Shown piece after piece: positions 58,928-63,506 of a stretch of 64,000 nt of DNA. Where the stretch lies: contig NZ_JAERQM010000004.1 of NCBI RefSeq assembly GCF_019029495.1, positions 416,880 to 480,879 of the forward strand, read 5' to 3'. The DNA is from Falsiroseomonas oleicola. Lineage in GTDB: Bacteria; Pseudomonadota; Alphaproteobacteria; Acetobacterales; Acetobacteraceae. A model generated the notes under the pieces. It saw nothing but the letters and a program-made list of their open reading frames with translations, was not told where the DNA came from and did not search any database. Made by a program: the position numbers and the translations under genes. How positions within the stretch are numbered: the stretch's first letter is position 1; the number at the start of each line of letters is the position of its first letter.

Positions 58928-59823
58928 GCCGCCGTCGCCTGCTTCGCCTCGGCCACCAGCCGCGCCGCCTCGGCGCCCCGGATCTTGGCAATATCGTCCT
59001 GGTATTTCAGCAGGGCGCCCAGGGTTTCATCCACCAAGGCCGGCTCCAGCTCCCGCGCATCAAGGGCCGAGAGGGCGGCGGCCCAGTCGATGGTCTCGGC
59101 GACGCCGGGCGGCTTGAAGGTGTCGGCATTGCGCACCGCCTGGACGAAGGACACCACCTGGGCCGAGAGCGCCTCGCTCACCTGCGGGGCGCGCAGCTTC
59201 AGGATGGCGCGTTCGCGGGCGGCGTCGGGGTAGTCCACCCAGTGATACAGGCAGCGGCGGCGGATGGCGTCATGCACCTCCCGCGTCCGGTTGCTGGTGA
59301 TGATGACCACCGGGGGGGTGGCGGCCTTCACCGGGCCGAGTTCGGGGATGCTGATCTGGAAATCGGCCAGGATCTCGAGAAGAAACGCCTCGAAGGGTTC
59401 GTCGGCGCGGTCCAGCTCATCGATCAGCAGCACGGCCGGCGCGCCTTCCAGCGCGTCCAGCAGCGGGCGGGCCTGCAGGAAGCGGCGGTCATAGATGCCG
59501 GCCTCCAGCGCCGCGCGGTCGCCGGCCTCGCCGCTGGCCTCCGCCAGGCGGATCGCCATCAACTGCCGGGCGTGGTTCCACTCATAGGCGGCGGAGGCCA
59601 GATCCATGCCGTCATAGCATTGCAGCCGCACCAGCCGGCGCGGCAATTGGGCGGCCAGGACCTTGGCGATTTCCGTCTTGCCGGTGCCGGGCTCGCCTTC
59701 CAGGAACAGCGGCCGGCCCATGCGCAGCGCCAGATGGACGGTGGTGGCCAACTGGCGGTCGGCGACATAGCCGCCTTCCGCCAACAGGCGCTGCGTGGCC
59801 GGCACGTCCGCGGGCAGGCTCAC
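58924..59823 (-). CDS. coxD: CoxD-like MoxR AAA+ ATPase
   Basis: A 299-residue MoxR-family AAA+ ATPase. Walker A GEPGTGKTEIAKVLA, the LQCYDGMDLASAAYEWNHARQLMAIRLAE stretch that is characteristic of CoxD, Walker B VLLIDELDRADEPFEAFLLE, sensor TSNRTREVHDAIRRRCLYHWVDYPDAARERAIL and arginine finger are visible. CoxD is the ATPase needed for metal-cluster assembly in CO dehydrogenase-type enzymes. It forms a four-base overlap series with coxG and coxE. Confidence 0.92.
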   Translation of the reverse strand: MSLPADVPATQRLLAEGGYVADRQLATTVHLALRMGRPLFLEGEPGTGKTEIAKVLAAQLPRRLVRLQCYDGMDLASAAYEWNHARQLMAIRLAEASGEAGDRAALEAGIYDRRFLQARPLLDALEGAPAVLLIDELDRADEPFEAFLLEILADFQISIPELGPVKAATPPVVIITSNRTREVHDAIRRRCLYHWVDYPDAARERAILKLRAPQVSEALSAQVVSFVQAVRNADTFKPPGVAETIDWAAALSALDARELEPALVDETLGALLKYQDDIAKIRGAEAARLVAEAKQATAA

Positions 59824-60509
59824 GTCAGGAAGATGAGCGCGAGCACGACGATCATGGCCGCGCCACCGATCCAGACCTGGGCCGGGAAGCCCATGAAGTC
59901 CTGGGTCAGCAGGCGCAGCGGCAGCGGCATCTGGGCCGGCGCCGGGTTCGGCCGCTGCACCGGGCCGCCGGGGGAGAGACCCTCCGCCCCATGATGGGTG
60001 ATCGGCGCGGCGTCGCTGGTCTCGGCCAGGTATTCGGTATCGGTGCCGGCGACCGCCACCGGCTCGGCGGGCTGCAACTGGGCGGCGAAGCGGTCGAAGA
60101 ACTGATCGGCCATGGACTTGGCGGTGCTGTCGATCAGCCGCGCGCCGAGCTGCGCCATCTTGCCGCCGACCTGCGCCTTCACATTGTACTTCAGCAGCGT
60201 GTCGGAGGGACCCAGCTCCTCCAGCGCCACATCGGCACCGCCCTTGGCGAAGCCCATGGCGCCGCCCTGGCCCTCACCGGAAATGGTGTAGGAGGCGGGG
60301 GGCACGATATTGGACAGCAGCACCTTGCCGCCGAACTTGGCCGACATCGGGCCGAGCTTCATCGAGACCTTGGCCTGGAACTGGTCGTCGCCGATCCGCT
60401 CCACGCTCTCGCAGCCCGGAATCGCGGCCTGGAGCACGGCCGGGTCGTTCAATGCCTCCCAGACCTTCTCGCGGGGGGCGCCGATGCGCCGTTCGCCGGT
60501 CATTTCCAT
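59820..60509 (-). CDS. coxG: CoxG-like SRPBCC protein with a C-terminal membrane anchor
   Basis: A 229-residue protein. Residues 1 to about 150 are a CoxG-type SRPBCC domain (ERRIGAPREKVWEALNDPAVLQAAIPGCESVERIGDDQFQAKVSMKLGPMSAKFGGKVLLSNIVPPASYTI, KAQVGGKMAQLGARLIDSTAKSMADQFFDRF), then a Pro-rich linker and a terminal hydrophobic helix (VWIGGAAMIVVLALIFL) that anchors it at the membrane. CoxG recruits CO dehydrogenase to the cytoplasmic membrane in Oligotropha/Afipia; a similar role for a related enzyme is likely. It is the first gene of the maturation operon. Confidence 0.92.
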   Translation of the reverse strand: MEMTGERRIGAPREKVWEALNDPAVLQAAIPGCESVERIGDDQFQAKVSMKLGPMSAKFGGKVLLSNIVPPASYTISGEGQGGAMGFAKGGADVALEELGPSDTLLKYNVKAQVGGKMAQLGARLIDSTAKSMADQFFDRFAAQLQPAEPVAVAGTDTEYLAETSDAAPITHHGAEGLSPGGPVQRPNPAPAQMPLPLRLLTQDFMGFPAQVWIGGAAMIVVLALIFLT

Positions 60510-60679: not shown

Positions 60680-62092
60680 ATGACGGCGATGCGTGCGCTC
60701 GGCCTGGTCATGGCGGGCGGTTTACTGCTGGCGCCGGGGGATGCGCTGGCGGCGGGGGTCCCCGGGGCGCAGCTTTCGCTGGCATGGGGCATTCCATTCG
60801 TCGGCATCCTTCTGTCCATCGCGCTGATGCCGCTGGTCGCCGCGCATCTCTGGCACCACCACTACGGCAAGATCGCAGCCCTCTGGGGCGCGCTGTTCCT
60901 GCTGCCCTTCGCCGCGACCTTCGGCGCCGGCGCCGCCTGGTACGAGCTGACCCATGTGATGGTGCTGGAATACATCCCCTTCATCACGCTGCTGCTGGCG
61001 CTGTACACGGCCGGCGGCGGGGTGCTGCTGAAGGGGTCGCTGGTCGGCACGCCCGGCGTGAACACCGCGCTGCTGGCCATCGGCACCATCCTGGCCAGCC
61101 TGATGGGCACCACCGGCGCGGCGATGCTGCTGATCCGCCCGGTGCTGCGCGCCAATGCCTTCCGCCGCCGCAAGACCCATACCTTCGTCTTCTTCATCTT
61201 CCTGGTGGCCAATATCGGCGGCAGCCTTTCCCCTGTCGGCGACCCGCCGCTGTATCTCGGCTTCCTGCGCGGCGTGTCCTTCTTCTGGCCGACCACGCAC
61301 CTGTTCGCCGAATTCGCCACCTGCGCGGTGATCCTTCTGGGCATCTACTGGGTGCTCGATACGCTGGCCTGGAACCGGGAGAAGCCGGTGGCGCCGGTGG
61401 TGGACAAGCAGGCGGTCGGCATCGAGGGCTGGCTGAATGTCTGGATGGTGGTGGCCACCGTCGCTGTCGTGATCGGCATGGGCTATGTGAAGCTCGGCGT
61501 CGTCAGCGTGCTGGGCCAGATGATGGAGGTGGAGCGCGTGCTCGGCATCCTGCTGTTCCTGGTCATCACCGGCATCTCCGTTGCTTTCACAACGCGGGAG
61601 CTGCGGGAGGCGAATGGCTTCGCCTGGGGCGCGATCCTGGAAGTCGCCAAGCTGTTCGCGGCCATCTTCATCTGCATGGCGCCGGTGCTGGCCATTCTGC
61701 GCGCGGGCGCGGATGGCGCGGCGGCGGGGCTGGTGGCGCTGACCTCCGGCCCGGATGGGGCGCCGATCCCCTGGGTGTATTTCTGGCTGACCGGGGTGCT
61801 TTCGAGCTTCCTGGACAATGCGCCGACCTACATCGTCTTCTTCGAACTGGCGGGCGGCGATCCGCTCTGGCTGATGGGGCAGGGCGCGATGACGCTGGCG
61901 GCGATTTCCTGCGGGGCGGTGTTCATGGGCGCGAATTCCTATATCGGCAATGCGCCGAACTTCATGGTGAAGGCCATCGTCGAGGAGAACGGCATCCGCA
62001 TGCCGTCCTTCTTCGCCTATTGCGGCTGGGCGATGATCTTCCTGGTGCCGCTGTTCGTGCTGGTCACCCTGATCTTCTTCCGGCCCGTCTGA
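60680..62092 (+). CDS. Sodium:proton antiporter-like membrane protein
   Basis: A 470-residue membrane protein with an N-terminal signal-like helix and about eleven more. WGIPFVGILLSIALMPLVAAHLWHHHYGKIAALWGALFLLPF, LVANIGGSLSPVGDPPLYLGFLRGVSFFW and GVLSSFLDNAPTYIVFFELA (a typical LDNAPT motif in the second half) place it with the UIT3/NhaD-type ion transporter group annotated as sodium:proton antiporters. Ion and direction are inference. Its stop overlaps the cytosine deaminase start by one base, so both are made together. Upstream 170 bases hold no gene. Confidence 0.85.
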   Translation: MTAMRALGLVMAGGLLLAPGDALAAGVPGAQLSLAWGIPFVGILLSIALMPLVAAHLWHHHYGKIAALWGALFLLPFAATFGAGAAWYELTHVMVLEYIPFITLLLALYTAGGGVLLKGSLVGTPGVNTALLAIGTILASLMGTTGAAMLLIRPVLRANAFRRRKTHTFVFFIFLVANIGGSLSPVGDPPLYLGFLRGVSFFWPTTHLFAEFATCAVILLGIYWVLDTLAWNREKPVAPVVDKQAVGIEGWLNVWMVVATVAVVIGMGYVKLGVVSVLGQMMEVERVLGILLFLVITGISVAFTTRELREANGFAWGAILEVAKLFAAIFICMAPVLAILRAGADGAAAGLVALTSGPDGAPIPWVYFWLTGVLSSFLDNAPTYIVFFELAGGDPLWLMGQGAMTLAAISCGAVFMGANSYIGNAPNFMVKAIVEENGIRMPSFFAYCGWAMIFLVPLFVLVTLIFFRPV

Positions 62093-62535
62093 TGGATTTT
62101 TCGGGGTTCATGGCCCTGGCGCTGGACCAGGCGCGGACGGGGTTTGCCGAGGGCGGGGTGCCGGTGGGCGCCGTACTCGTTGGCGCGGAGGGCCGGCTGC
62201 TGGGCGCCGGGCGGAACCGCCGGGTGCAGCAGGGCGACCCGATCGCGCATGGGGAGATGGACTGCCTGCGCCAGGTGGGACGCCTGCGGAGCTATGCCGG
62301 CACCATCCTGTTCACCACCCTGACCCCCTGCATGATGTGCACCGGCACCATCCTGCAATTCGGCATTTCACGAGTTGTGATCGGGGAAAACCGCAGTTTT
62401 GCCGGGAATGAGGACTTCCTGCGGTCGCGCGGGGTGGAGGTGACGGTGCTGGACGATCCGGATTGCGTCGCGCTGATGCGGCGCTTCCAGGCGGAGAGAC
62501 CGGAGGTCTGGGCGGAGGATATCGGCGAAGGCTAG
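62092..62535 (+). CDS. Cytosine deaminase, yeast Fcy1-like
   Basis: A 147-residue zinc deaminase of the CDA fold. The zinc and catalytic residues are H53, E55 (IAHGEMDCLRQVGRL), C80 and C83 (TTLTPCMMCTGTIL). The rest closely follows yeast cytosine deaminase: ISRVVIGENRSF, LRSRGVEVTVLDDPDC, and the C-terminal RPEVWAEDIGE, nearly the same as the RPQDWFEDIGE that closes the Fcy1 active site. So deamination of free cytosine to uracil is likely, rather than tRNA or guanine deamination. The ATG is in the TGATG overlap with the antiporter gene. The bacterial CodA enzyme is unrelated in fold. Confidence 0.8.
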   Translation: MDFSGFMALALDQARTGFAEGGVPVGAVLVGAEGRLLGAGRNRRVQQGDPIAHGEMDCLRQVGRLRSYAGTILFTTLTPCMMCTGTILQFGISRVVIGENRSFAGNEDFLRSRGVEVTVLDDPDCVALMRRFQAERPEVWAEDIGEG

Positions 62536-62588: not shown

Positions 62589-63506
62589 ATGCCCTATGTG
62601 ATCGCCGACGACCTGCCCGACGCCCCCGCGGGGGTGCGCTTCCGCGCCCTGCTGGACCGGCCGCAGATCCTGCAGATGCCGGGCGCGCATCTCGGCATCG
62701 CCGCGCTGCTGGCGAAGAAGGCCGGCTTCGAATCGCTCTACATGTCCGGCGCCGCCATGTCCGCCACCATGGGCCTGCCCGACCTCGGCATGATTACCGT
62801 GGACGAGGTCGCCTTCTTCATCCGCCAGGTCGCCCGCGCCTCCGGCCTGCCGATCCTGGTGGATGGCGATACGGGCTATGGGGAGGCGCTGAACGTCATG
62901 CACATGGTGCGGGTGTTCGAGGAGGCCGGCGCCGGCGCCGTGCATCTGGAAGACCAGCTCCTGCCGAAGAAATGCGGCCATCTGAACGACAAGAAGCTGG
63001 CCGATGCCCGCGACATGGCGGCCAAGGTCGCCGCCGCCCGCAAGGCGCGGAAGCACCTGTACATCATCGCCCGGACCGACGCCGTGGCCAGCGAGGGCAT
63101 GGATGCCGCCGTGGCCCGCGCCCAGCTTTACCTGGACGCCGGCGCGGATGCGATCTTCCCCGAAGCCCTGGTCACCCGCGACATGTTCGCCGAGTTTGCC
63201 CGCCGCATGCCGGGGGTGAAGCTGCTGGCGAACATGACCGAATTCGGCCGCACCCCCTTCTTCACCGCGAAGGAGTTCGAGGAGCTGGGCTATGCCATGG
63301 TGATCTGGCCGGTCAGCCATCTGCGCGTCGCCGCCAAGGCGATGGAAGACCTCTACGCCGCCATCAACCGCGACGGTGGCACGATGAAGATGCTGGACCG
63401 CATGCAGACCCGCGCCGAGCTCTACGCCACCATCGGCTACCACGAATACGAGGCGCTGGATTCCAGCCTGGTCGCCACGGTGATCCCGGAGGGGATGCCG
63501 CAATAG
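62589..63506 (+). CDS. Isocitrate lyase-family enzyme, methylisocitrate lyase-like
   Basis: A 305-residue PEP mutase/isocitrate lyase superfamily enzyme. LYMSGAAMSATMGLPDLGMITVDEV, LVDGDTGYGEALNVMHMV with Asp residues 92 and 94 for Mg, VHLEDQLLPKKCGHLNDKKL with catalytic C129 in KKCGH, and IIARTDAVASEGMDAAVARAQLYLDAGADAIFPEAL are visible. KKCGH and size match 2-methylisocitrate lyase (PrpB); dimethylmalate lyase is an alternative and no prpC/prpD genes are nearby. The GAAGGAG ribosome site is strong. It stands alone after the cytosine deaminase gene. Confidence 0.88.
   Translation: MPYVIADDLPDAPAGVRFRALLDRPQILQMPGAHLGIAALLAKKAGFESLYMSGAAMSATMGLPDLGMITVDEVAFFIRQVARASGLPILVDGDTGYGEALNVMHMVRVFEEAGAGAVHLEDQLLPKKCGHLNDKKLADARDMAAKVAAARKARKHLYIIARTDAVASEGMDAAVARAQLYLDAGADAIFPEALVTRDMFAEFARRMPGVKLLANMTEFGRTPFFTAKEFEELGYAMVIWPVSHLRVAAKAMEDLYAAINRDGGTMKMLDRMQTRAELYATIGYHEYEALDSSLVATVIPEGMPQ

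Follow-up and report, generated by a model that had tools for sequence, protein, structure and literature searches.

A predicted Fcy1-type cytosine deaminase of Falsiroseomonas oleicola, whose gene overlap with a transporter is very probably a by-product of rearrangement

Bacterial and fungal cytosine deaminases are treated as distinct types that evolved separately, at least in the part of one review drawn on here (PMC9508425). E. coli CodA has the reaction expected of the enzyme described here, the conversion of cytosine to uracil, but its fold is unrelated to that of the yeast enzyme Fcy1 (yCD; PDB 1uaq, 1ox7 and 1p6o), with CATH 3.20.20.140 for CodA and 3.40.140.10 for yCD in the portion of PMC11796326 used for this comparison. 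The excerpted text of PMC11000218 gives Asn51, Gly63, Glu64 and Asp155 of yCD as ligand contacts and describes Trp152 and Phe114 as important in product release, while the roles of His62 and Glu64 are tabulated in the same portion of PMC11796326. Among the matches listed in our literature search, no paper dealt with an Fcy1-type gene of Roseomonas or with a bacterial one located next to URC genes; this is a weak absence, as subscription journals lay mostly outside the search. Bacterial homologues may be mentioned in the URC pathway study of Andersen et al. (2008) and in the treatment of the deaminase superfamily by Iyer et al. (2011).

The window, meaning the whole stretch of 64,000 nucleotides from Falsiroseomonas oleicola that was analysed, carries a predicted deaminase gene whose start overlaps the end of a transporter gene. 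The features of the locus are the following.

59820 to 60509, minus strand: CoxG-type gene (Pfam), divergent from the transporter; a conserved flank
60680 to 62092, plus strand: CitMHS_2 (PF16980) membrane transporter gene, 470 aa; its stop and the deaminase start share 1 base
62090 to 62094, plus strand: TGATG stop-start overlap; by eye, no clear Shine-Dalgarno sequence before the deaminase ATG
62092 to 62535, plus strand: Fcy1/yCD-type cytosine deaminase gene (predicted activity), 147 aa; PF00383
62589 to 63506, plus strand: methylisocitrate-lyase-type gene, above the cut-off of the prpB model TIGR02317; the transporter's usual downstream neighbour in relatives

The first-pass annotation had described both reading frames and their one-base overlap, and these were confirmed with the same coordinates: the transporter ends in TGA (62090-62092), the A of which doubles as the A of the deaminase ATG. 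The product of 62589-63506 scores 410.7 bits against the NCBIfam model TIGR02317, whose cut-off is 354.4. Upstream, between 55040 and 60509 on the minus strand, lies a run of genes that by eye resembles a molybdenum-hydroxylase maturation set, in which CoxG is confirmed by Pfam and CoxD-, CoxE-, XdhC- and MobA-like genes were recognised by eye.

Identity of the two overlapping genes

Judged by sequence and modelled fold, the window gene most likely encodes an Fcy1-type cytosine deaminase, an unremarkable representative of a family that is already known. At E <= 1e-36 the PDB search gave 13 sequences, every one of them yeast cytosine deaminase in its native or a mutant form, and 1uaq was matched at E 3e-38 with near full-length similarity. 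The window protein is 49% identical to yCD on the aligned part, with short gaps, and identity to yCD ranges from 47 to 55% across the 81 bacterial sequences formed by the window protein and its relatives (the best 80 of 348). HGE and PCMMC motifs are present, the C-terminus reads AEDIGEG, and the zinc motif HxE...PCxxC is found as His53, Glu55, Cys80 and Cys83. When these 81 sequences (best 80 of 348 plus the window) are aligned in yCD numbering, Asn51, His62, Gly63, Glu64, Cys91, Cys94, Phe114, Trp152, Glu154, Asp155 and Ile156 do not vary at all (81 of 81), which takes in the zinc site, the base contacts Asn51, Gly63, Glu64 and Asp155, the gating Phe and Trp and the C-terminal ED-I lid. The zinc site and a "signature" EDIGE ending had been the basis of the earlier identification. 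Both are there, and the window protein has all five EDIGE residues; as a signature, the ending is kept only in part, with Gly157 in 20 and Glu158 in 66 of the 81 (window and best 80 of 348). The window protein differs from the yeast enzyme in its bacterial gene setting and in its pocket, where yCD Phe54, Thr83, Asp92 and Met100 are replaced by Val, Ile, Met and Gln respectively. Given these pocket differences, it is possible that another 4-aminopyrimidine would be the main substrate.

The AlphaFold monomer model of the deaminase (pLDDT 88.8) has a fold nearer to yCD than to TadA. The first 25 PDB matches in a fold search are all yCD, with TM by query of 0.90-0.93, and the next are TadA-type chains at 0.71-0.81. 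TadA shares the superfamily fold and the HxE...PCxxC motif with the window protein, but it is a much weaker match than yCD in sequence and structure alike: its best match in the PDB search is 5.9e-16, and the NCBIfam TadA model gives 68.4 bits, below the cut-off of 150. A TadA identity was rejected on these sequence scores and on the weaker fold match, and a guanine deaminase identity on its weaker PDB matches alone, the best being 1.3e-7. Against five relatives, the dN/dS of the deaminase is 0.12-0.15, indicating that the gene is maintained.

The upstream gene had been labelled as a UIT3/NhaD-type antiporter, and nothing in the analysis ties it to sodium/proton exchange. It is a clear member of the CitMHS_2 family, since PF16980 ("putative citrate transport") matches it at 566.7 bits, with a cut-off of 25.7, over positions 2-448 of 448. 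The model PF03600 (CitMHS) remains below its cut-off for the window transporter and exceeds it for the relative in L022. No match was obtained in NCBIfam at E <= 0.001 and no credible homologue in the PDB up to E = 1, and the AlphaFold model, built on a 7-row alignment, has a pLDDT of 37.

Distribution and gene settings of the deaminase family

A search of genome contigs found 348 stretches that encode a relative of the deaminase, and the best 80 were kept as loci. Within the window's genus the gene occurs in 8 of 15 genomes. At E <= 1e-30 it was found in 41 of 398 Pseudomonadota genomes, 39 of these with at least 46% identity; the term "fungal-type", which had been applied to the window gene, is for this reason misleading, while the Fcy1-type assignment itself is supported by sequence and modelled fold. 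Strong CodA (relatives of E. coli CodA at E <= 1e-90) is commoner, being found in 87 of the 398 genomes against 39, so that the statement that most bacteria use CodA holds loosely for Pseudomonadota. The two enzymes are seldom found in one genome. Strong CodA and the deaminase occur together in 1 of 398 genomes versus 8.5 expected (Fisher p 8e-4, which ignores ancestry), and the exclusion is weaker at looser cut-offs, with 4 of 41 having both and p 0.013 at the loosest. Counted as deaminase only, both and CodA only, the genomes number 4, 1 and 10 in family f44, 3, 0 and 3 in family f51, and 1, 0 and 1 in family f40. Alternation of this kind is expected of two unrelated enzymes doing one job.

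The flanks of the 80 loci (best of 348) were taken to a limit of 8 kb, or less where a contig ended, and 73 of the 80 have more than 1.2 kb upstream. In 23 of them, a PF01522 (polysaccharide-deacetylase-family) gene stands before the deaminase on the same strand, at gaps of -4 to 171 bases; an ABC ATPase gene lies upstream of it in 21 of these loci, the full set of binding protein, permease and ATPase in 16, and 14 of the 23 are Rhodobacteraceae/Roseobacteraceae-type. The arrangement is seen in L030, L036, L041 and L047 and in 19 further loci. For a representative PF01522 protein, the nearest PDB entry is 3rxz, "polysaccharide deacetylase" (1.7e-56), with PuuE allantoinase at 6.6e-10, and the NCBIfam PuuE model gives 57 bits, far under its cut-off of 424.6. 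A BPD_transp_2 permease lies within 6 kb in 12 of the same 80 loci, several of them with a Bmp-type binding protein.

A third setting comprises genes of uracil use. Within 8 kb of the deaminase, 9 of the best 80 loci have a uracil phosphoribosyltransferase, GTP-cyclohydrolase-like or DUF1688 gene. Five of the nine have all three (L047, L049, L072, L076 and L084), and some of them are present in L044, L074, L095 and L097. NCBIfam names the GTP-cyclohydrolase-like gene GTP cyclohydrolase II; we take it to be URC1, and the DUF1688 gene to be URC4, of the yeast uracil-degradation set, of which the genes near the deaminase are perhaps the bacterial counterpart. None of the three settings is found in 43 of the 80 loci (best of 348). 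Downstream of the deaminase in two of these 43, L055 and L090, are genes for a PfkB kinase, a nucleoside hydrolase, a 2-oxoglutarate oxygenase and a Bmp-type binding protein, a row that looks like nucleoside breakdown. The ORFs within 1.5 kb on either side were listed for 29 further Pseudomonadota loci, and inspection by eye of the larger ones in 11 of these showed no shared partner. The gene contexts of the deaminase are frequent, not universal.

Origin of the overlap and likely role of the enzyme

All 15 genomes examined from the window's genus encode the transporter, and the deaminase stands in different relations to it. It follows directly, with the one-base overlap, in three genomes (the window, L153 and L154) and after 13 bases in one (L165, the same place as in L025); in four (L161-L164) the deaminase is separated from the transporter by a TctC-like and then a PNPOx-like gene, and the remaining seven (L155-L160 and L166) have the transporter without it. 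A prpB-type gene is found within 3.5 kb after the transporter in 14 of the 15. In L155, prpB and the deaminase are both absent from the 6 kb downstream of the transporter, and the genome has no deaminase match; in their place (L155:4047-8414, minus strand) lies a gene of 1455 residues which by eye is a glycine-aspartate repeat gene. Outside the genus, 28 transporter loci were compared, namely the best-scoring among the matches in 82 genomes and two more. The transporter is followed by prpB, with no deaminase between them, in 26 of the 28, and in 24 within 200 bases; the two exceptions are L132, which stops at the contig end, and L128, with none within 1.5 kb. On the transporter's other side, a divergent coxG is found in 25 of these 28 loci (Acetobacteraceae). 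Across L016-L018 and L111-L135, the transporter-prpB pair is steadier than the transporter-deaminase pair, and prpB may form with the PF16980 transporter a unit that takes up and cleaves tri- or dicarboxylates. In three other Acetobacteraceae drafts (G119, G124 and G165), the deaminase and the transporter are on different contigs.

The overlap had been read as implying that the two genes work together, for example in pyrimidine salvage with pH or ion control; in another form of this view the transporter would import the substrate of the deaminase, and the overlap would fix the ratio of the two products. It is true that the one-base overlap is kept in three genomes (the window's, F. tokyonensis and F. 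selenitidurans), that in all 8 genus genomes with the deaminase the two genes share a strand and are no more than 1.8 kb apart, and that a transport gap is left by the lack of an NCS1 cytosine permease. However, the transporter occurs in 82 of 200 genomes of the window's family, Acetobacteraceae (E <= 1e-60), and the deaminase in 5 of 200 (E <= 1e-20). Seven of the 15 genus genomes have the transporter but no deaminase, other genes intervene in four of the eight that have both, and the usual neighbour of the transporter is prpB. Of the best 80 of the 348 deaminase loci, only 7, all Falsiroseomonas/Roseomonas-type, have the transporter within the flank of up to 8 kb, and 73 do not. Conservation of the pair across Acetobacteraceae, which had been proposed as a check, largely fails, as the pairing is confined to the window's genus group and homologues elsewhere are largely not beside the transporter. 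A functional pairing was rejected on synteny and is very improbable.

The reading that we prefer is that a bacterial Fcy1-type cytosine deaminase has been placed between an older transporter and a prpB-like gene, and that the overlap is, very probably, a by-product of rearrangement and not a partnership. The deaminase would have come to lie between the two genes within the Falsiroseomonas lineage, and a single sub-clade would have lost the stretch immediately in front of it, so that the transporter's stop came to overlap the deaminase start. Translation coupled by termination-reinitiation is possible, but would be incidental to the rearrangement. The transporter ends in Phe-Phe-stop in 10 of the 15 genus genomes and is three residues longer in the three overlap genomes (FFRPV, FFRGA and FFRPA), lengthened ends that are explained if the old stop was lost together with the intergenic sequence. 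L155 groups with the overlap genomes on the transporter tree and has a lengthened end (FFRAG) with no deaminase, and therefore one loss must be added: L155 probably lost the gene. The order of events rests on parsimony, which gives three changes in deaminase presence on the transporter tree, where 9 of 21 inner branches are unresolved. The overlap is probably genuine and not an artefact of start choice, since Met1 of the deaminase is Met also in L019-L023; another ATG stands at codon 7. By eye, a purine-rich stretch precedes the deaminase start in L021-L023, and none was seen in the overlap genomes.

The genomic context of the window gene points to a simple use of its product. Uracil phosphoribosyltransferase is encoded in 18 of 18 Acetobacteraceae genomes tested, the window's included, and the NCS1 cytosine/purine permease (PF02133) in none of the 18, its control being positive in 4 of 14 genomes. 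Strong CodA was not found in the window's genome, and an own CodA was discarded as a candidate there, the best match being a protein of only 27% identity. DUF1688 occurs in 10 of 50 genomes, 48 of which have the deaminase; it is absent from seven Acetobacteraceae genomes, the window's own among them, and from the six Falsiroseomonas/Roseomonas genomes to which L019 and L021-L025 belong. A URC-type uracil degradation in the window's genome was rejected on the absence of DUF1688 (URC4). With the phosphoribosyltransferase present and strong CodA, DUF1688/URC4 and NCS1 absent, simple salvage from cytosine through uracil to UMP would be the likeliest role of the deaminase. By analogy with yCD, His53, Cys80 and Cys83 would hold the zinc and Glu55 would shuttle protons, while Asn42, Gly54 and Asp143 would contact the base and Phe103 and Trp140 would gate the pocket. 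The enzyme would most likely hydrolyse cytosine to uracil and ammonia, and the uracil would pass to UMP through the uracil phosphoribosyltransferase encoded in the same genome.

It is quite unlikely that the protein uses its deaminase fold mainly on another substrate, such as guanine, tRNA adenosine or a modified pyrimidine (for example, a thiamine breakdown product). TadA and guanine deaminases have this fold in common, the pocket departs from that of yCD, and the 23 of 80 loci behind a PF01522 gene (best 80 of 348), usually with ABC-transporter genes, may signal a substrate other than cytosine. Nevertheless, the TadA model falls far below its cut-off, the yCD base contacts and the C-terminal ED-I are invariant in the 81 sequences (window and best 80 of 348), the deaminase alternates with CodA, and uracil-use genes lie near it in 9 of those 80 loci. 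As for acquisition of the window gene from a fungus, the 49% identity to the yeast enzyme may invite the idea, and the trees make it hardly credible. In the deaminase tree of 67 rows, whose one fungal sequence, yCD, is long-branched, the window protein groups apart from yCD with Falsiroseomonas, Roseomonas, Neoroseomonas, Roseococcus and Reyranella-type rows (supports 97/86 and 96/85), and yCD falls inside a 20-row clade (95/89) together with rows from Pseudomonadota of another class than the window's, probably Gammaproteobacteria. An AU test against all bacterial rows on one side, made on a 36-row tree with one fungal sequence, gave p 0.042. A fungal transfer of the window gene was rejected on the tree and this test. 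The nesting of yCD inside the bacterial family is suggestive only, and speaks against a recent fungal source.

Significance for the enzyme family

The preferred reading corrects the tempting view of a gene overlap as a partnership. It also draws attention to a "fungal" cytosine deaminase that is common in Pseudomonadota and seldom in the same genome as CodA. More speculatively, bacterial relatives may offer other scaffolds for the enzyme that is paired with the prodrug 5-fluorocytosine, and it may be prudent to look for an Fcy1-type gene before 5-fluorocytosine counter-selection is applied in such hosts.

The point to carry forward is the company that the deaminase gene keeps in bacteria outside the window's genus. 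It is conceivable, though unlikely, that Fcy1-type deaminases in bacteria point to a module, or several, of pyrimidine uptake and degradation that have yet to be described. If so, ring opening of the base after deamination, whether derived from cytosine or a related 4-aminopyrimidine, could fall to the PF01522 enzyme, which has a distant likeness to PuuE allantoinase, in a breakdown route other than the Rut, reductive or URC routes. Such a module would lie outside the window, and the gene of Falsiroseomonas oleicola would encode the enzyme in a stand-alone form that serves salvage.
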